From the NCBI GenBank assembly GCA_016209015.1, contig JACQWY010000003.1, forward strand, positions 62,001-126,000: 64,000 nt of DNA, in the 5' to 3' direction. Positions within the stretch are counted from its first letter, which is position 1. The number at the start of each line of letters is the position of its first letter. Below, in pieces: positions 22,710-32,754 of the stretch. The translations under genes and the position numbers were made by a program. This stretch comes from Gammaproteobacteria bacterium. GTDB lineage: Bacteria > Pseudomonadota > Gammaproteobacteria > Ga0077536. The notes beneath the pieces are model-generated. The model saw nothing but the letters and a program-made list of their open reading frames with translations. It searched no databases and was not told the origin of the DNA.

Positions 22710-25007
22710 CTAGAACGTCTCCCAGTCGCTGTCCGCGTGGGCCTCGTCCAGCGCCGGCGCGGCGGCGGCCGAAGCGGTTTTCACGCGTTTGAGCGTCGCG
22801 ACGCTGCTCGTCTTGCGACCGTGGCCCCGGCCCGCCGACGTCGCCGCACCGGGCTTCGCGACCGGCGCCGCGGCCGCAGTGGCAGCGGCCGGCAGCACGG
22901 CGATTTCGGGCGCTCCCGTGTCGAAGAAGCGCACGAGTGCGATGAGCCGCTTCGATTCTTCGTCCATGGTCTCGCTCGCCGCCGCCGCTTCTTCGACGAG
23001 GGCCGCGTTCTGCTGCGTCGTCTGGTCCATTTGCGCGACGGCCTTGTTGACCTGCTGGATTCCGGAGGACTGTTCCATCGAAGCCGAGGCGATCTCCTCG
23101 ACGATGTCGCTGACCTTCTTCGCCGCGACGACGATCTCCCCGAGCGTCGCGCCGGACTCGTCGACGAGCTTCGAACCTTCGGTGACCTTCTCCGCGGAAT
23201 CGTGGATCAGCGCCTTGATCTCCTTCGCCGCCGTCGCGCTGCGTTGCGCGAGATTGCGCACCTCGCTCGCCACGACCGCGAAACCGCGGCCCTGCTCGCC
23301 GGCGCGCGCGGCCTCGACCGCGGCGTTCAACGCGAGCAGATTCGTCTGGAACGCGATCTCGTCGATGACGCCGATGATGTCGGCGATCTTGCGGCTCGCC
23401 TGGTTGATCTCGGCCATCGCGGACACCGCGCGGCTGACGACCGTGCCGCCCACGCTCGCGAGGTCACGCGCCGAGATCGCGAGCCGGGTCGCTTCCTGGG
23501 CGTTCTCGGCGTTCTTCTGCACGGTGGCGGTCATCTCCTCCATGCTCGCCGCGGTCTCCTCGAGCGAGGAGGCCTGCTCTTCGGTGCGGGCGCTGAGCTC
23601 GACGTTGCCCTTCGCGACCTCCCGCGCCGCCGTGTTGATGCTCGCCGCGCCTTCGTTGATCTCGCCGACGATGTTCTTGAGCTGCGCGACGGAATCGTTG
23701 ACCGCGCTCTTCAGCGCCGCGAACTCGCCGTCGTATTCCGCTTCGATGCGCTGAGTGAGATTACCCTCGGCGACACCCGTCATGACCGTCGAGGTTGCGC
23801 GGAGAATCTCCTCCACCGTCATCTGGTAGCGCTTCTGCGCAGTGATGTCGGTCGCGAACTTCACGACCTTGCAGGGCCGTCCGCTCGCGTCGAAGATGGG
23901 ATTGTAGGATGCCTGAATCCAGATTTCGCGACCGCCCTTGCCGATGCGCTTGTAGACGCCGGCGTCGTGTTCGCCGCGGCCGAGCTTCGACCAGAAACTC
24001 TTGTATTCCTGCGACGAGACGTACGCCGGATCGACGAACATCGAATGATGACGCCCGACGATCTCGGACGACTGGTAGCCCAGCGCGTCGAGGAAATTGT
24101 CGTTCGCGCGCAGGACCGTGCCGTCGAGCGTGAACTCGATGACGCCCTGGGATTTGTCGATGGCCTGCAACTGGCCGGCGATTTCGGCGTTGCGGACCTT
24201 CTGCTCGGTGATGTCCGCGGCGTACTTCACGACCTTGAAGGGCTTGCCGTTCAAGTCGAAGATCGGGTTGTAGGAGGCCTGGATCCAGACTTCCTTGCCG
24301 CCACGGCCGATGCGCTTGTATTCGCCCGCACTGTACTCGCCGCGCCGCAACTGCTCCCAGAACCGCGCATACTCGGGACTGTTCGCATACGCGGGCTCCA
24401 CGAACAGCGAGTGATGCCTGCCCTTGATGTCGGCGAGGCTGTAGCCGAGCAGGCCGAGGAAGATGTCGTTCGCCGTCTGCACCGTGCCGTCGAGCGCGAA
24501 CTCGATCGTGCCCTGGGATTTGTTGATGGCGTCGATCTGGCCCTGGAAATCCGCGTTCGCGAGCTTCTGGGCAGTGACGTCGGTCGCGTACTTCACGACC
24601 TTGAAGGGCTTGCCGTCCGTGTCGAACACGGGGTTGTAGGACGCCTGGATCCACACTTCCCGGCCGCCCTTGCCGATGCGCTTGAACTCGTCGGCGCGGA
24701 AACGCCCGTCGCGCAGGTCCGCCCAGAACTGGCGGTAGTCGGAACTCGCCGCATAGGCGGATTCCACGAACATCGAATGATGCCTGCCCTGAATCTCGGC
24801 GAGCGTATAGCCGAGCGCCCGCAGGAAGTTTTCGTTCGCCGTGAGGATCATGCCGTCGAGGCCGAATTCGATGACGCCTTGCGAGCGGTTGATTGCCTCG
24901 AGCTCGTTCTCGAGTAGCCGGACCTCGCGTCCGAGCCGTGCACCCTCATTGCGCAGTTGCTCGAGCTCTGGATTGGAACCGCTGAACAGACGGCTTAAGA
25001 AGCTCAT
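22710..25007 (-). CDS. Soluble methyl-accepting chemotaxis protein with three PAS domains
   Basis: This 765-residue chemoreceptor has no transmembrane segment. It has a short N-terminal coiled coil, three PAS domains in tandem with a 122-residue period (about 42-407, each with RHHS.FVE and [11 protein letters not shown]), then a HAMP-like linker and the MCP signalling hairpin ([23 protein letters not shown]). The last five residues, DWETF, match the NWETF tether that recruits CheR and CheB in E. coli Tar and Tsr. ATG 25007 is preferred to GTG 25013 because of a GGAGAG at good spacing. The layout resembles BdlA/Aer-type sensors. The ligand (haem, flavin or none) is unknown. Confidence 0.93.
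23787..24884 (-). repeat. Three tandem PAS-coding units of 366 bp
   Basis: Within the chemoreceptor gene the PAS-coding unit is repeated three times with a constant 366-bp (122-codon) period. Each copy carries SQG.IEF near its start and K.V(K/R)(Y/F)A.D(V/I)T near its end. The copies have diverged in sequence but share long identical peptide stretches, so they arose by internal duplication and could recombine. Confidence 0.8.
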
Positions 25008-25452
25008 GCTCACTCTCCATCTCTAGGGCCTGGAACCACCGCACCGGCGCGCTGGGGCTCCGCTGGAACCGGGCACGTTGAACTGCGCAAGCCGCAGAGT
25101 CGGCGCCTCCGGCACGGTCGCCGGGGCTCCGGTCCGCATTCAGGCGGCCGGCTCGCGAGCCGTGCAACGTGTCCCTGCGACATTCCTGGTCGCGGCGCGC
25201 ATCCGTCACCGCAGGCCGGGAGAGGCTTGGCGAATTCCATGTCGGCACCCGAAAAACCTCCCCGGGTGCGGGGAATATCGGCTGGCCCCACGGGCGCTTG
25301 AGCACGGCCCGGGACAGGGAACCGGGTCGCTCGCGTGCGCACGGCATGCGTTGCAGGCTGGTCGTCGCATCGCACTTTCCGTAGTCTCGTGCGACGCGCC
25401 GCCGATGCCGCGCCCGGGCTTGCGATCAGCCCATCGTGAGAGGAGGTCTACG
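25008..25452. other. 445-bp spacer without a recognised gene
   Basis: Several open frames cross here on both strands, but none shows a motif or a supported start. It should hold the promoter of the minus-strand chemoreceptor gene and that of the plus-strand DUF1272 gene. No clear -35/-10 pair or hairpin with a T-run was found. Confidence 0.4.
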
Positions 25453-25768: not shown

Positions 25769-26395
25769 CTAGCGCGTCGCGCCCGGCAGCCACTTCACGA
25801 GCAGCTCGATCATCTGCTCGCGCGAGAGCGTGGGCTGCGCGAGCGGCCACCAGAACACGGCCCGCGTGCGGATCAGATCGACGATGCGGGCGGCGTCGTA
25901 ATAGCCCTCGCCGTCGAGGCAGTCGCCCGCTTGGCGCGTGACGAGGTAGAGCGCGGCGCCGAGCGTCGTCTCGCGGTCCTCGGCGAGCGCCACGGCCCGC
26001 TCCGCGGCAGCACTGCCCTCGCCGCTCTGCGCGGGCAGCACGAGCGCGATGAAATCGAGCAGTCGCGACAAGCCGAGCGGCAGCGCGAGGCCGTGCTCCT
26101 GGGCGAAGCGGCGCAGTGCGAACGGCGTGACCGCCGCTTCCGGATCGGGGTTGCCCGTCGCCGCCGTGAATGCCGCCCACAGTCGCGCGTGGGCAGCGCC
26201 GCGTGCGGTCTCCGGGGCGGGCGGGGCGTAGCTCGCGGGATCTTCGCCGATGAGGAGCGGCAGGGCCTCGGCGCGCGCGCGCCAGATATCGAGCTTCGCC
26301 CAGTGCTCGTAATGCGCCTGGCTCGCGGCGTCGACGCGTGCGGTGTCCAGGTCCGCGCGCAGCACGGCGAGCGCGGCTTCGAGCGTGTCGGTCAT
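25769..26395 (-). CDS. Hypothetical protein
   Basis: I do not recognise this 208-residue protein. It is Ala- and Leu-rich, probably all-helical, with no signal peptide or transmembrane segment. Two Trp-containing stretches stand out: HYEHWAKLDIWRARAE near residue 30 and VFWWPLAQP near 180. It follows the sorbosone-type dehydrogenase gene by 24 bases on the same strand, so it is probably the last gene of the kinase-dehydrogenase unit. G/C-rich third codon positions in this frame support real coding. Confidence 0.65.
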   Translation of the reverse strand: MTDTLEAALAVLRADLDTARVDAASQAHYEHWAKLDIWRARAEALPLLIGEDPASYAPPAPETARGAAHARLWAAFTAATGNPDPEAAVTPFALRRFAQEHGLALPLGLSRLLDFIALVLPAQSGEGSAAAERAVALAEDRETTLGAALYLVTRQAGDCLDGEGYYDAARIVDLIRTRAVFWWPLAQPTLSREQMIELLVKWLPGATR

Positions 26396-26419: not shown

Positions 26420-27595
26420 TCAACGGCCGGCGAAGCCGCTCGCCGCGCCGGTGTAGTGCACGCGATAGATCACCCCGGCCCCATCGTCGGAGATCAATAT
26501 CGAGCCGTCCGGCAATTGCGCGAACGCGACCGGCCGGCCCCAGGCTTCCTCCCCTTCCAGCCAGCCCGTTGCGAACGGCTCCTCCCGCTCGACGCGACCC
26601 TCGGCATCGAGGTGTTCGACCATCACGCGATAGCCGATCTTGTGCGTGCGGTTCCAGGAGCCGTGCTCGGCGACGAACAGCGCGCCGCGGTAGGCGGCGG
26701 GGAATTGTTCGCCGGTGTAGAACAGGAGCCCGAGCGGCGCGACGTGCGGGCCGAGCTTCGCGACCGGCGGGACGTAGTCCTTCGGATCGTGGCCCGCACC
26801 GAATTTCGGATCCGGCAGATCGCCCTGATGGACGTAGGGGAAGCCGAAGTGCTGGCCGGGCTTCGTGAGCCGGTCGAGCTCGCAGGACGGCACGTCGTCG
26901 CCGAGGTTGTCCCGACCGTTGTCGGTGAACCAGAGCTCGTGCGTCGTCGGATGCCAGGCGAAGCCCACGGAATTGCGGATCCCGCGGGCGACGATCTCGT
27001 AATCACGGCCGTCGGGCGTCATGCGTCCGAGGGTGCCGAAAGGATCCTCGACTTCGCAGACGTTGCACGGCGCACCGACCGGGACGTAGAGCTTGCCGTC
27101 CGGTCCGAAGCCGAGGTACTTCCAGCCGTGGTGGCGCTTGGACGGCAGGCGATCGTAGACGACGACCGGCCGCGGCGGGTTCGCGAGCTTCGCGTCGATG
27201 CCGTCGTAGCGCAGGATGCGACTGATCTCGGCGACGTAGAGCGCGCCGTCCCGGTAGGCGATGCCGGTCGGCATCTCGAGCCCTTCGGCGATCACGTGCA
27301 CCTCCCGGCCGGGTCCCGCGCCGCCCGGGCCGCTGAGTGCGTACACCCTTCCCGCCTGCATGGTGCCGGCGTAGACGATGCCGGACGGCGCAACGGCGAG
27401 CTGGCGCGCATCGGGCACGGCGTCGCTGTAGATTTCGATCGCGAAGCCGGGGGGCAGTTTGATGCGTTCGATGGGAGGCGCGGCTACAGCCGTGGCGGCC
27501 GCGGACGCGGCGAGCACGAGCACGAGCACGAGCATCGTGAGGGCTTTCGCCCCGCGGCGCTGTCCCTGCGGCCGGGATCCGCGCTGCGCGGTCAC
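26420..27595 (-). CDS. Sorbosone dehydrogenase-type (PQQ-GDH-like) protein
   Basis: This 391-residue protein has an N-terminal signal segment (LVLVLVLAASAAATAVAAPP) and a six-bladed propeller of the sorbosone/soluble glucose dehydrogenase family. Marks include LPPGFAIEIYSD, GLEMPTGIAYRDG, HHGWKYLGFGPDGKLYV, ARGIRNSVGFAWHP, LWFTDNGRDNLGDD, EHGSWNRTHKIGYRV and RPVAFAQLPDGSILISDD. It should be periplasmic and may use PQQ to oxidise a sugar or aldehyde. A pair of cysteines (PCNVCEVED) stands out in the family segment. The start is GTG 27595, or an inner ATG at residue 21. It begins 4 bases after the kinase gene stop. Confidence 0.9.
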   Translation of the reverse strand: MTAQRGSRPQGQRRGAKALTMLVLVLVLAASAAATAVAAPPIERIKLPPGFAIEIYSDAVPDARQLAVAPSGIVYAGTMQAGRVYALSGPGGAGPGREVHVIAEGLEMPTGIAYRDGALYVAEISRILRYDGIDAKLANPPRPVVVYDRLPSKRHHGWKYLGFGPDGKLYVPVGAPCNVCEVEDPFGTLGRMTPDGRDYEIVARGIRNSVGFAWHPTTHELWFTDNGRDNLGDDVPSCELDRLTKPGQHFGFPYVHQGDLPDPKFGAGHDPKDYVPPVAKLGPHVAPLGLLFYTGEQFPAAYRGALFVAEHGSWNRTHKIGYRVMVEHLDAEGRVEREEPFATGWLEGEEAWGRPVAFAQLPDGSILISDDGAGVIYRVHYTGAASGFAGR

Positions 27596-27599
27596 GGAC

Positions 27600-28895
27600 T
27601 CACAGCTCCTGGGAGACGCGCTCCGTCGTGACCGACAGGCGATGGATCAGCGTGCGCAGGAATACTTTCAGGAAGCGCACCTGACAGTTGAGAGAGACCT
27701 GACTGATGACCGTGGAGTTGAGCTTCAGGAGCGAAGTCGGGCCGATCGCGACGATCGTCGCCGTGCGCTTCGTCTTCGCGAGGTAGCCCATCTCGCCGAA
27801 ACAGTCGCCCGCGTAGAGCGTGCGCAATTGCTTGCCGAGCTTCTGCACCGAGACCTCGCCGTGGACGATGATGTAGAACGAATCGTCGAGCTCACCTTCG
27901 AGAATGATGTCCTGGCCGTCGCGATATTCCTGCCACTGTCCGGCCCGCACGATTTCCCAGACTTCCGCATCCGGGAAGCCGACGAAGAAATCGAGTTGCT
28001 TGACGGCCGTGAACTTCTCCTGCTCGGAGATGTTTTCCTGCGGCGTCTCCAGCAGTTGATCGAAGGCGCGCGAGAGATCCGAGGCGAGTTCGAGCCCCAT
28101 CGGGTAGCGCGTTTCCGTCTCCTTCGACATCGCCTTCGCGACGATGTCGGACAGCGCACGGGGCACGTCGCCGCGCAGTTCGTGCACCGGGCGCGGCTCC
28201 TCGTGCAGGATCTTCTGGACGAGCCGCGAGAAGTTGTCCGACTGGAACGGATGCCGACCGGTCAGCAGCTCGTACATGACCACGCCGAGCGAGAAGAGAT
28301 CCGTCTGATTGCCGACGTAATCCTCGCGGACCTGCTCCGGCGACATGTAACGCGGCGATCCGACGAGCCCCATGGGCATCGTCTCCGTGGAATCCATCTT
28401 CGTCAGGTGCGCGATGCTGAAATCGCCGATCTTCACGTCGATGTCGGAGGTGACGAGGATGTTCGTCGGCTTGATGTCGCGGTGGATGACACCCTGCTTG
28501 TGCGCGTAGTCCAGCGCCTTCGCGCATTTGAACGAGATTTCGACGACCTTCTCGATCGGCAGCAGATTTTCGGAGCGGCAATACGGCTTGAGGGTCGCCC
28601 CGCCCTCGATGTACTCCATCACGATGTAGCAGATCTCGCGATCGACGCCCGCGTCGAAGATGCCGACGATGTTCGGATGCGTGAGACGGCCCGCGGTGTG
28701 GGCCTCGTTGAAGAACATCTTCCGATAGCGATCGCCGAGCTCTTCGTCGTTCAATTGTTCGGCGTGTGCGACCTTGATGGCGACCTGACGATCGACATAA
28801 GGATCGTAACCGAGATAGACCGTGCCCATGCTGCCACGGTTGATCTCTTTGAGGACCTCGTACTTACCGAGACGGTCGGGAGGGCTGTCGCTCAT
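27600..28895 (-). CDS. Ser/Thr protein kinase with C-terminal cyclic nucleotide-binding domain
   Basis: This 431-residue protein joins a Hanks-type kinase (about 11-275) to a cyclic nucleotide-binding (CNB) domain (about 300-410). The kinase has Lys41 in VAIKV, HRDIKPTN (138-145) and MSPEQ. The DFG motif is DFS (158-160), and the first glycine of the P-loop is Asn (NRGSMG). The CNB domain has FGEMGYLAKTKRTAT (Glu368 and Arg377 retained), so it could bind cAMP or cGMP. There is no transmembrane segment. It heads a unit with the sorbosone-type dehydrogenase and the hypothetical gene. A paralogue lies at 30887-32164. Confidence 0.93.
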   Translation of the reverse strand: MSDSPPDRLGKYEVLKEINRGSMGTVYLGYDPYVDRQVAIKVAHAEQLNDEELGDRYRKMFFNEAHTAGRLTHPNIVGIFDAGVDREICYIVMEYIEGGATLKPYCRSENLLPIEKVVEISFKCAKALDYAHKQGVIHRDIKPTNILVTSDIDVKIGDFSIAHLTKMDSTETMPMGLVGSPRYMSPEQVREDYVGNQTDLFSLGVVMYELLTGRHPFQSDNFSRLVQKILHEEPRPVHELRGDVPRALSDIVAKAMSKETETRYPMGLELASDLSRAFDQLLETPQENISEQEKFTAVKQLDFFVGFPDAEVWEIVRAGQWQEYRDGQDIILEGELDDSFYIIVHGEVSVQKLGKQLRTLYAGDCFGEMGYLAKTKRTATIVAIGPTSLLKLNSTVISQVSLNCQVRFLKVFLRTLIHRLSVTTERVSQEL

Positions 28896-29125
28896 ATCTC
28901 TCTGTCGGCATAGTTGTGCGTCACGGCCTCGCCGATTTCCTTGCCGCGACGGAGTGCGGCAGCCGGCTCGCGTTCACCGTCCCAAGAATATCACGGGGCT
29001 CACAGTGGTTACATGCGCTCAGGGCTGCGGACAGCGTCCTGAACGCTCGCCCGGACGGCTTCCGTAACACGCGCGAGCAGCGGCTGTGGCAGAATGCGCG
29101 GAATTCGCCAGTCACGGGATCCCGC

Positions 29126-30745
29126 ATGAAATCCAGCCGCATCAGCTCCTGGCCCAAGCTCTCCGCCCTCGCCAAACAGTTGCGCCCCCGGCGCATCGAA
29201 AGCCTCTTCGACGACGACGCCGACCGCGTCGGCGAGTTCAGTATCGACGCGGCAGGCCTTTATCTTGATTACTCCAAGAATCTCATCGACCGCGCGGCGT
29301 TGCGCCTCCTCGTCGAGCTCGCCCACGAATGCGCGCTTGCGGAGCGTATCGAGCGGCTGTTCCGCGGCGATCGCATCAACGTCACCGAGGGCCGGGCGGT
29401 GCTCCACACGGCGCTGCGCGACCCGCAGGACGACGTGCGCGTCGATGGTCAGCCGGTCGCCGGTGATATCCGCGCCGTCCAGGCGAAGATGCGGACGCTC
29501 GTGGAGGCCGTCTGCAGCGGCCGCTGGACCGGCTTCCGCGGCGACCGCATCACCGATGTGGTGAACATCGGCATCGGCGGCTCGCATCTCGGCCCCCTCC
29601 TCGCCTGTGACGCTCTGCGCTACGACGCCGCGAGCGGCCTGCGCGTCCACTTCTGCTCGAACGTGGACGGCGGAGACATCGATCGCACGCTGACCGGCCT
29701 CGATCCCGCGACCACGCTCTTCATCGTCGCCTCGAAGTCGTTCACCACGCCGGAGACGGCGCTGAACGCGAACAGTGCCCGGCGCTGGCTGCTTGCCGCA
29801 GCCGGGGACGAGGCCGCGACCGCGAAGCACTTCCTCGCCATCAGCGCACATCCGGCGAAAGCCGCGGCATTCGGCATCCCTGCCGACAACGTCCTGCCGA
29901 TGTGGGACTGGGTCGGCGGGCGTTATTCGCTGTGGTCCGCGATCGGCCTGCCGATCGCGTTCGCGCTCGGGATGCACGGCTTCGAGCGCCTGCTCGCCGG
30001 TGCGGCCGCGATGGACCGGCATTTCCGCAGTGCGCCGTTCGAGCGCAACATGCCGGTGCTCTTCGCGCTCGTCGGCATCTGGAACACGAACTTCCTCGGA
30101 GCGGAGAGCTTCGCGGTCGTGCCCTACGACGATCGCCTGTTCCAACTGCCCGCCTACCTTCAGCAGCTCGAGATGGAGAGCAACGGCAAGCGCGTGACGC
30201 TCGCGAACCGGCCGGTCAAGGTCGCGACCGCACCGATCCTGTGGGGCGGCCTCGGCACGAACGTCCAGCATGCGTTCTTCCAGCTCCTGCACCAGGGCAC
30301 GCGCCTCATCCCTGTGGATTTCATACTCGCCATGACGCATCAGCGCTCGCCGCGCGAGCATCACGACATGCTGGTCGCGAATTGCATCGCCCAGGCGGAA
30401 GCGCTCATGTGCGGCCGTCAACGCGCCGAGCTCGACGACGGGACGCCCGCGGAGCCCGGCATCGATCTGCCGCTGCACCGGGAGACTCCGGGCAACCAGC
30501 CGAGCAATATGCTGATCCTCGAATCGCTCACGCCCGAGACGCTCGGTGCGCTGCTCGCGCTCTACGAGCACAAGACCTATGTGCAGGGGGTGATCTGGGG
30601 GATCAACTCCTTCGACCAATGGGGCGTGGAGCTCGGCAAGAAGCTTGCCGGGAAGCTGCTCGCGGAAATGGGCGGAGGAACACGCGAGAAGCACGATGGC
30701 TCGACGAGCGCGCTGCTCGAGCGCTATCTGCGGTCGCGCGGGTAG
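29126..30745 (+). CDS. pgi: Glucose-6-phosphate isomerase
   Basis: This 539-residue protein is full length for phosphoglucose isomerase, which interconverts glucose 6-phosphate and fructose 6-phosphate in the cytoplasm. It shows NIGIGGSHLGP, VASKSFTTPET, MWDWVGGRYSLWSA (signature region), AESFAVVPYDDRL, LEMESNGK and NSFDQWGVELGK. The frame is open from 28916, but ATG 29126 (MKSSR) gives the usual N terminus. It diverges from one kinase-CNB gene (230 bases between starts) and converges on the other. No ribosome site of strong match is seen. Confidence 0.96.
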   Translation: MKSSRISSWPKLSALAKQLRPRRIESLFDDDADRVGEFSIDAAGLYLDYSKNLIDRAALRLLVELAHECALAERIERLFRGDRINVTEGRAVLHTALRDPQDDVRVDGQPVAGDIRAVQAKMRTLVEAVCSGRWTGFRGDRITDVVNIGIGGSHLGPLLACDALRYDAASGLRVHFCSNVDGGDIDRTLTGLDPATTLFIVASKSFTTPETALNANSARRWLLAAAGDEAATAKHFLAISAHPAKAAAFGIPADNVLPMWDWVGGRYSLWSAIGLPIAFALGMHGFERLLAGAAAMDRHFRSAPFERNMPVLFALVGIWNTNFLGAESFAVVPYDDRLFQLPAYLQQLEMESNGKRVTLANRPVKVATAPILWGGLGTNVQHAFFQLLHQGTRLIPVDFILAMTHQRSPREHHDMLVANCIAQAEALMCGRQRAELDDGTPAEPGIDLPLHRETPGNQPSNMLILESLTPETLGALLALYEHKTYVQGVIWGINSFDQWGVELGKKLAGKLLAEMGGGTREKHDGSTSALLERYLRSRG

Positions 30746-30886
30746 TGTAGGGGGCAGATGCGTGCAGCGGCTTCCAGAGCGCTGACCGAAGGGATAGTCG
30801 CCTGGAACCGCGACCGATGCGCCTTCTCCGTCGGCACATCCTTCAACAGGAACTTCCTCGGGCGCCTCCCGCCAGGAACCTCCTCC

Positions 30887-32164
30887 TCACTGCCGAACCA
30901 TCATCTCCGTGGTCTTCTGCAGCCGCTCCGTCAGCACGCGCAGGAACACGCGGCAGAACCTGAGCTGACATTCCTGCGAGACCTGCTCGATGAGCGTCGC
31001 GTTCACTTTCAGGAGCGACACCGGCCCGTCGGCACGAATGGTGGCCGTGCGGCGGATCTTGTTCAGGAAGCCCATCTCGCCGAAGCAGTCGCCTTCCCTG
31101 AGCCTGCCGATCGGCGTGCCCTGCTTGGTCACGACGACGTTGCCGGCGCTGATGATGTAGAACGAGTCGTCGACGTCGCCTTCGCGGATGATGAGCTGTT
31201 CCGGGCCGATGTCCTGCCAGACGCTCGCGCGGATGATCTCCCAGATCTCGGAATCCGGGAAACCGCGGAAGAAATCGAGCTGTTTCACATAGGCGAATTT
31301 CTCCTGGGCGGAGATTTCCTCCTGCGGCCGCGCGAGATGGGTGAACGCCATGCTGAGATCGGACGCGAGGTCGATGCCCATGCGATAGCGCCGCTCGGGC
31401 CGCTTCTCGAGCGCTTTGAAGACGATCTTCTCGAGGATCGGCGGCAGATCCGAGCGGAACGTCGCGAGGGGCGTCGGCTCTTCGTTGATCACGCGATGGA
31501 TGAGGCTCGAAAAGCTCTCGCCGCCGAAGGGGTGCTTACCGGTCAGGAGCTCGTAGGCGACGATGCCGAGCGAGAAGAGATCGGTCTGGCTCGTGATCGT
31601 GTCTTCCTGGATCTGCTCGGGCGACATGTAGCGCGGTGAGCCGACGAAGCCCATGGGCATCGTCTGCGTGAGATCCGTGCGATTGATGTGCGCGATGCTG
31701 AAATCCGCGATCTTCACGTCCATGTCCTGCGTCAGCAGGATGTTCGAGGGCTTGATGTCGCGGTGGATGACGCCCTGGCGGTGGGCGTAATCGAGCGCTT
31801 TCGCGCAGTGGAAGATGATTTCCGTCGCCTTGTTGAGCGTCAGCAGATTCTCGGCGCGGCAGAACGTGCGCAGCGTATCACCGTTCTCGACGAGCTCCAT
31901 GACGATGTAACACTTGTCGTCGTCGACGCCGGCATCGAAGATGTCGAGGATGTTCGGATGGCGCAGCATGCCGGCGGTGTGCGCCTCGTTGAAGAACATC
32001 TTGCGGAAGCGCTCGCCCTGCTCGCGATCCTTGAGGGCATCGGCCATCGCGACCTTCACCGCCACCGGCCGATCGATATAGGGATCGTAGGCCTGGTAGA
32101 CGACGCCCATGCTCCCGCGGCCGACCTCGCGGAGTATTTCGTATTTTCCGAGCTTCTTGAGCAT
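30887..32164 (-). CDS. Ser/Thr protein kinase with C-terminal cyclic nucleotide-binding domain (paralogue)
   Basis: This 425-residue protein is a paralogue of the 27600-28895 kinase with the same layout. The kinase has an intact P-loop (GRGSMG), Lys37, HRDIKPSN from residue 134 and MSPEQ. The DFG motif is DFS (154-156), as in its twin. The C-terminal CNB domain has FGEMGFLNKIRRTATI with Glu and Arg retained. Both share the signature segment FRKMFFNEAHTAG (first residue Y in the twin) and DIFDAGVD-like stretches. The start is ATG 32162-32164; the upstream ribosome site is weak. It converges with pgi. Confidence 0.92.
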   Translation of the reverse strand: MLKKLGKYEILREVGRGSMGVVYQAYDPYIDRPVAVKVAMADALKDREQGERFRKMFFNEAHTAGMLRHPNILDIFDAGVDDDKCYIVMELVENGDTLRTFCRAENLLTLNKATEIIFHCAKALDYAHRQGVIHRDIKPSNILLTQDMDVKIADFSIAHINRTDLTQTMPMGFVGSPRYMSPEQIQEDTITSQTDLFSLGIVAYELLTGKHPFGGESFSSLIHRVINEEPTPLATFRSDLPPILEKIVFKALEKRPERRYRMGIDLASDLSMAFTHLARPQEEISAQEKFAYVKQLDFFRGFPDSEIWEIIRASVWQDIGPEQLIIREGDVDDSFYIISAGNVVVTKQGTPIGRLREGDCFGEMGFLNKIRRTATIRADGPVSLLKVNATLIEQVSQECQLRFCRVFLRVLTERLQKTTEMMVRQ

Positions 32165-32316: not shown

Positions 32317-32754
32317 ATGTCGAAATCCGCCCTGTGCTTCGTCGCCTCGCTGCACGCCCTGCTCGCCACGGCGCCGGCGCTCGCCTGCGACGGCCTCGTC
32401 GTCGACGAGGCCTGGGTGCGCGAGCCGCCGCCCGGCGCGGAAGTTGCCGCGGGCTATGTGCGCCTGACGAATCGCGGCGCGGCGCCGCTCGCGATAGACG
32501 CCGTGACGAGCCCCTGTTGCGGCCACGTGATGATCCATCGCACGGAGCAGCACGGTGACAGCCTGCGCATGGTGCACGTCGACCGGCTCGCGCTCGCCCC
32601 CGGCGAGGCCGTGACGCTCGCACCGGGCGGCGCGCATCTGATGCTGATGGGACTCGCCGCCCCGCTCACCGCCGGCAACGGCGTCAGGTTCTCGTTCGCT
32701 TGCGGCGGACACGCGACCGAGGTCCGCTTTCCGGTGCGCGCGGACGCGCCCTGA
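32317..32754 (+). CDS. PCu(A)C copper chaperone
   Basis: This 145-residue periplasmic protein has a signal peptide (FVASLHALLATAPALA) and a cupredoxin-like DUF461/PCu(A)C domain. The Cu(I) motif H-X10-M-X21-H-X-M is exact: His74, Met85, His107 and Met109. It delivers copper to the CuA site of cytochrome oxidase in concert with Sco. An extra Cys-Cys pair (CCGH, 67-70) lies close to the first ligand. It sits 152 bases from a divergent kinase gene and 30 bases before psd. No oxidase assembly genes are adjacent. Confidence 0.93.
   Translation: MSKSALCFVASLHALLATAPALACDGLVVDEAWVREPPPGAEVAAGYVRLTNRGAAPLAIDAVTSPCCGHVMIHRTEQHGDSLRMVHVDRLALAPGEAVTLAPGGAHLMLMGLAAPLTAGNGVRFSFACGGHATEVRFPVRADAP

Follow-up and report, generated by a model that had tools for sequence, protein, structure and literature searches.

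We identified two paralogous genes, K1 and K2, each encoding a Hanks-type Ser/Thr kinase that ends in a cyclic nucleotide-binding (CNB) domain, on either side of pgi, the gene for glucose-6-phosphate isomerase. Both lie in the window, the 64,000-nucleotide stretch of gammaproteobacterial DNA analysed here (Table 1). We give an even chance to the reading that the two proteins are soluble, cyclic nucleotide (cNMP)-gated and catalytically competent Ser/Thr kinases tied to carbon metabolism. The preliminary description of this DNA had proposed such a paralogous pair around pgi, and this was borne out by profile matches and by 63% identity between K1 and K2 in alignment.

Table 1 Features of the kinase–CNB cluster and its surroundings in the window.
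Feature	Position	Strand	Basis or remark
Chemoreceptor, three PAS stretches and MCPsignal	22710-25013	-	profile search
208-aa gene after GSDH	25769-26395	-	without Pfam or NCBIfam match
Glucose/sorbosone dehydrogenase-like (GSDH) gene	26420..27595	-	4 nt after K1, same strand
K1: Ser/Thr kinase with C-terminal CNB domain, 431 aa	27600..28895	-	translation, profile matches
K1 CNB domain (residues 322-399), phosphate-binding cassette FGEMGYLAKTKRTAT	27699..27932	-	profile, alignment
K1 kinase domain (Pkinase, residues 12-264)	28104..28862	-	profile match, AlphaFold2 model
K1 DFS (residues 158-160) replacing DFG	28416..28424	-	translation, codons
pgi, glucose-6-phosphate isomerase, between the twins	29126..30745 (start inferred; ORF opens 28916)	+	PGI profile, NCBIfam
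K2: Ser/Thr kinase with C-terminal CNB domain, 425 aa	30887..32164	-	translation, profile matches
K2 CNB domain (residues 320-397), cassette FGEMGFLNKIRRTAT	30974..31207	-	profile, alignment
K2 kinase domain (residues 8-261)	31382..32143	-	profile match
K2 DFS (residues 154-156)	31697..31705	-	translation, codons
Copper chaperone PCu(A)C, divergent from K2	32317..32754	+	profile; flank conserved in window's family

Translation of K1 and K2 gave reading frames with no internal stop. The longest K2 frame opens at an upstream GTG (32623); judged by alignment with the family, the start is the ATG at 32164. In Pfam profile searches, both proteins contain one Pkinase domain (E 2e-49 for K1, 1e-52 for K2) followed by a single cNMP_binding domain (E 9e-16 and 7e-16), all far above cut-off. 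Both carry the residues of Hanks-type Ser/Thr kinases, namely the beta3 Lys, HRD Asp, catalytic-loop Asn and metal Asp, and the marks of the CNB superfamily, the cNMP_binding profile together with a G-E...R cassette. In K1 these include Lys41, Glu64, HRD 138-140, Asn145 and Asp158 in the kinase domain and Gly367, Glu368 and Arg377 in the CNB domain, so the earlier statement that Lys, HRD and the CNB Glu and Arg are kept holds in translation and alignment. Among Pfam matches up to E 0.001, neither PASTA repeats nor a CRP/FNR-type helix-turn-helix after the CNB domain was found in K1 or K2, and the NCBIfam equivalog for PASTA kinases scored 297 and 288 bits against a cut-off of 450. The PKG layout, in which tandem CNB domains precede the kinase, is absent too, the single CNB domain coming after the kinase at residues 322-399.

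The AlphaFold2 model, with 42 sequences in the alignment, reached a mean pLDDT of 87.4 and a pTM of 0.65, a value at which the arrangement of kinase and CNB domains is not fixed by the model. Only residues 165-169 and 171-175, in the activation loop, fell below pLDDT 50; the model is weak also around residues 281-290 and at the C-terminus. The K1 kinase model matches PknB with a Z of 35.5 and an rmsd of 1.4 over 258 residues, the structural match rows (VIA-align) covering mainly residues 3-282, that is, the kinase part.

The fusion of these two domains had been thought uncommon, which our survey contradicts: among the matches listed, with up to six candidates scored per genome, at least 55 of 274 genomes of the class encode a full-length kinase–CNB fusion, and we rejected the idea of a rare fusion on that count. 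The source genome, with 17 Pkinase matches, has four such fusions: K1, K2, K3 (L003) and K4 (L004). The fusion also occurs in Solimonas, Azospira, Rhodocyclus and Gallionella, and in MAGs named Desulfobacterales, Nitrospirae and Nitrospinota. Seven Rhodocyclales-type loci carry a fusion gene (L052, L055, L056, L057, L058, L060 and L064); there it presumably adjoins argH, and in several of them we take an AlgZ/AlgR-like pair to lie nearby. Duplicate removal reduced 131 full-length open reading frames to 101, and a 95% identity filter left 93 rows, four of them lacking a DFx call, for a quick tree. On this tree K1 and K2 are sister clades (SH-aLRT 91 and 97, joint 93). Both clades recur in other families (L040, L041 and G035), so the duplication predates the window's family.

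Replacement of DFG by DFS, claimed earlier, is confirmed by the codons, GAT TTC AGC in both K1 and K2, with the AGC one step away from GGC. The Gly so replaced is usual in Hanks-type kinases, although the name does not demand it. DFS is present in 44 of the 101 non-redundant full-length fusions, distributed by clade as 16/18 in K1, 19/19 in K2, 0/12 in K3, 0/16 in K4 (K3 and K4 read DFG) and 9/36 in the others; the 93-row tree calls for at least seven changes of DFx state. With newer loci included, 48 of 51 K1 and K2 proteins have Ser and three have Gly, the exceptions being L020, L022 and the deep branch L062. L020 and L022 are K1 relatives in which the rest of the loop is much alike, and their DFG means that the Ser is not indispensable. 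For comparison, one of 55 related kinases that have a readable motif and no CNB domain carries DFS; these 55, drawn from the same genome (11 DFG, 1 DFS, 1 DAD) and close relatives (41 DFG, 1 DWG) and not a random sample of bacterial kinases, exclude three partial fragments without the motif. The idea that DFS is confined to CNB kinases was rejected, since alignment shows a stand-alone kinase of the same genome, L200 (G000:C42:54527-55258), with DFS as MDFSVAH. From these alignments, DFS is an inherited, conserved trait, neither a local accident nor unique.

Could DFS mark K1 and K2 as a pair of pseudokinases serving as scaffolds? In the available text of PMC12599244, a pseudokinase is defined by loss of the beta3 Lys, HRD Asp or metal Asp, and the Leptospira pseudokinase CP1 is listed there with DFS; CP1, however, also lacks the HRD Asp, whereas K1 and K2 keep all three residues. 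All 101 fusions have the beta3 Lys and the metal Asp, and 100 have the HRD Asp. Moreover, TbDYRK of Trypanosoma brucei, the one DFS kinase we found with published mutants at the Ser, is active with DFS, and the accessible part of PMC7136023 reports about 70% activity after Ser-to-Ala and about 13% after Ser-to-Gly exchange, with a rigid pre-activated state proposed by its authors. We therefore rejected the pseudokinase reading, which we consider very improbable; judged by motif, DFS is no sign of a dead kinase and K1 and K2 appear catalytically competent. The suspicion that DFS alters metal-loop behaviour stands in part: by analogy with TbDYRK, which needs its Ser, DFS in K1 and K2 suggests that the loop is rigid and pre-set, not that metal binding is lost. 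For K2, dN is 0.14 vs a dS of 2.7, indicating purifying selection; dN/dS was dropped as strong evidence because the K1 dS is saturated.

The best solved relatives of the K1 and K2 CNB domains are apicomplexan PKG, PKA regulatory subunits and PKG1, with whole-chain E values of 4e-30 and 2e-24 that sum several CNB domains and best single-domain E values of 5e-11 and 4e-6 in the printed alignments; the K2 CNB domain also matches CNB chains of Bd1971. A Thr follows the cassette Arg in 18 of 18 K1 proteins. In the portion of Kannan et al. 2007 available (Table 1, PMC2246266), the cassette consensus is RTA for PKG and RAA for PKA, and bacterial channels likewise have RTA, so the ligand of K1 and K2 cannot be called from this Thr. 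The source genome has one class I adenylate cyclase and several class III cyclase matches (four over the cut-off, one under). Within the window's family (25 genomes), 13 of the 17 genomes that carry the fusion have a class I cyclase and none of the 8 that lack it does, a weak co-occurrence in that all eight fusion-less genomes are below 3 Mb and several are incomplete. Two genomes (G006 and G009) have K1 and K2 and no class I cyclase. Elsewhere in the source genome, another kinase gene (about 860 aa) is convergent with a class III cyclase gene (G000:C20:4483-7772), and kinase matches in open frames of about 860-aa length recur in many genomes of the class.

Some CRP-like regulators bind c-di-GMP, and the CNB domain could bind another ligand, c-di-GMP above all, in which case the family would read surface or biofilm signals and not carbon state. 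The sister copies speak for this. Of 14 K4 loci with flanks, 13 have a gene of a PilZ-DUF1631-GGDEF-EAL cluster as the upstream neighbour of K4, and the remaining one begins at a contig edge; the two genes overlap or lie close together, the exceptions being gaps of 145 (L155) and 585 (L067). One example, L010:8817-14310 (G000:C28), lies about 32 kb before the window start. K3 is followed by a gene of an MshEN-T2SSE cluster in 10 of 11 loci (for example, L009:7228-10502, G000:C50). The domain scan of these neighbours covered one member per cluster, and adjacency was read from positions, the kinase being on the wrong strand or missed by the gene caller in L009, L150, L157, L161 and others. Against this reading, no c-di-GMP gene was recognised beside K1 and K2 among the scanned neighbours, and all four paralogues carry the Gly-Glu...Arg cassette of canonical cNMP binders. 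We consider c-di-GMP or another ligand for the CNB domains unlikely overall; the neighbours of K3 and K4 keep c-di-GMP in play, as ligand or as partner signal.

The twins are retained or lost together. In the window's family of 36 genomes, 18 have both, 16 have neither and two have K2 only. The apparent exceptions were rejected: where only K2 was found, it is close to the end of its contig (in G296 the contig starts 2.4 kb from K2, and the G302 contig is 3613 bases), so K1 would fall off, and in G257 K1 is cut by the contig edge. This joint retention fits a CNB domain that is ligand-free or dimer-forming, with control exerted through activation-loop Thr phosphorylation or K1–K2 contact. So does the loop motif [ST]xTMP[ML]G, common to most K1 and K2, which resembles the phosphorylated Thr pair of PknB; the K3 of the source genome lacks the Thr-rich loop of the twins. 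The cassette nevertheless has its Gly in 101/101 fusions, its Glu in 100/101 and its Arg in 101/101, and the Glu and Arg counts would be hard to explain without a phosphate-type ligand. We consider a ligand-free or dimer-forming CNB domain unlikely. One deviant K1 (L042:11214-12700, G006) stops after the kinase domain, with the CNB domain encoded in another frame.

The link of the pair to a sugar gene proved stronger than first claimed. The ORF at 28916-30745 (+) matches PGI with E 8e-193, and its match to the NCBIfam glucose-6-phosphate isomerase equivalog begins at residue 71, placing the true pgi start probably at 29126. The comparison covered 24 loci in which K1 and K2 share a contig: L039, L040 (the G187 contig), L041, G000, G003, G005-G009, G011, G013-G016, G018, G035, G094, G142, G156, G163, G223, G257 and G268. 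Between the twins, pgi is present in 19 of the 24, two of which (G094 and G223) have twins about 12 kb apart with other genes besides pgi. The five without it are L040, G035, G009, G011 and G018. No PGI match was found in the whole genomes G035 (97% complete) and G187 (87%), so the twins can exist without pgi; a full match lies elsewhere in G011 and G018, and G009 has fragments only. In 10 of the 24 loci, a gene for a two-CBS-domain protein also lies between the twins. In the window's family no CBS-pair gene was found there, and weak CBS-protein matches (33-35%) lie outside the pair in L130 and L135.

These data bear on a plainer explanation, that the pgi link is an inherited neighbourhood with no functional meaning. 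Genes for nuo, psd and the copper chaperone are also conserved around the twins within the window's family (the chaperone is probably outside the kinase system), pgi is missing from five of the 24 loci and is elsewhere in the genome in two, and the genes face both ways, so K2-pgi-K1 is not one operon. In 11 loci, counting that of the window, a GSDH tblastn match adjoins K1, and tblastn places matches to the 208-aa gene next to the cluster in seven further genomes (L039, L124, L126, L127, L131, L132 and L134). Four loci tell against mere neighbourhood: L041, L232 (G142), L234 (G163) and L235 (G257) keep the K2-pgi-CBS-K1 core, and when 44 other window genes were tried against them, with 4 to 10 kb of DNA past K2, the sole match was a weak one of 26% (L232). 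We put the neighbourhood explanation somewhat short of an even chance. At the level of gene order, persistence of the core amid unrelated flanks speaks most strongly for a working link to PGI, and K2-pgi-K1 is, by the same comparison, an old cluster newly recognised here.

In the cNMP-gated reading that we favour, K1 and K2 would be soluble PknB-like Ser/Thr kinases, each controlled by its own C-terminal CNB domain. A cyclic nucleotide, most likely cAMP and possibly cGMP, would bind the phosphate-binding cassette, shift the C-terminal helix and thereby free or re-pose the kinase domain. The Ser of DFS would hold the kinase core near a DFG-in state, so that the CNB domain, and no longer a flip of the loop, would decide between on and off. 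The twins would act as a pair. Their conserved position on either side of pgi, joined in several families by a CBS adenylate-sensor-type protein, suggests that they relay carbon and energy state to sugar-phosphate metabolism.

Bacterial cAMP is known mainly through CRP-family transcription factors, and a kinase family this widespread, its cAMP/cGMP-type pocket intact, would link cyclic nucleotides directly to protein phosphorylation. The twins and the pgi cluster point, short of proof, to a signalling switch akin to the kinases that cyclic nucleotides activate in animals and plants. More tentatively, and in our view rather unlikely as a whole, the family would comprise proteobacterial cyclic-nucleotide-dependent kinases separate from PKA and PKG and reversed in domain order, in which an obligate pair with rigid DFS, pgi and a CBS adenylate sensor form a conserved post-translational carbon/energy switch operating alongside CRP or in its place; the sister copies would serve modules for c-di-GMP and secretion. 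The twin-pgi cluster offers a concrete first system, and the DFG-bearing K1 relatives L020 and L022 are natural controls for the DFS question.

In the literature we found no experimental study of a bacterial kinase–CNB protein; the O'Boyle 2025 kinase atlas may treat the family. The text of Krupa 2005 contains neither 'cyclic nucleotide' nor 'cNMP', and that of Tyagi 2010 none of 'cNMP', 'cyclic' or 'CNB'. Bacterial CNB domains attached to 'kinases' appear as family 23, 'Other_bacterial', in Kannan et al. 2007 (PMC2246266), whose available text leaves the kinase kind unstated and mentions neither a function nor DFS nor a gene cluster; histidine kinases aside, we found no other published bacterial CNB-kinase combination.

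Set against known systems, K1 and K2 resemble mycobacterial PknB in the fold of the kinase and in its catalytic motifs, with 34-36% identity to the best match by structure. PknB has a PASTA sensor outside the membrane, whereas K1 and K2 have a CNB domain in its place, and DFS. As in PKG and the PKA R/C system, CNB and Ser/Thr kinase domains are combined in one system, and the Arg-Thr-Ala of the cassette agrees with the PKG consensus given in the accessible part of Kannan et al. 2007 (PMC2246266). Unlike in PKG and PKA, the CNB domain is single and C-terminal of a PknB-like kinase; this order, opposite to that of PKG, means that the PKG mechanism is not transferable. TbDYRK shares DFS in an active kinase but is a eukaryotic DYRK, with no CNB domain mentioned in the available text (PMC7136023). 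Comparable too are bacterial enzymes whose fused CNB domain senses cAMP, according to the available accounts: the CNB-EAL enzyme Bd1971 and the mycobacterial CNB-acetyltransferase Pat (PMC8316039). Both differ from K1 and K2 in carrying another catalytic domain, and their CNB domain lies near the N-terminus (the Bd1971 match at chain residues 5-107, the Pat match at the profile start).
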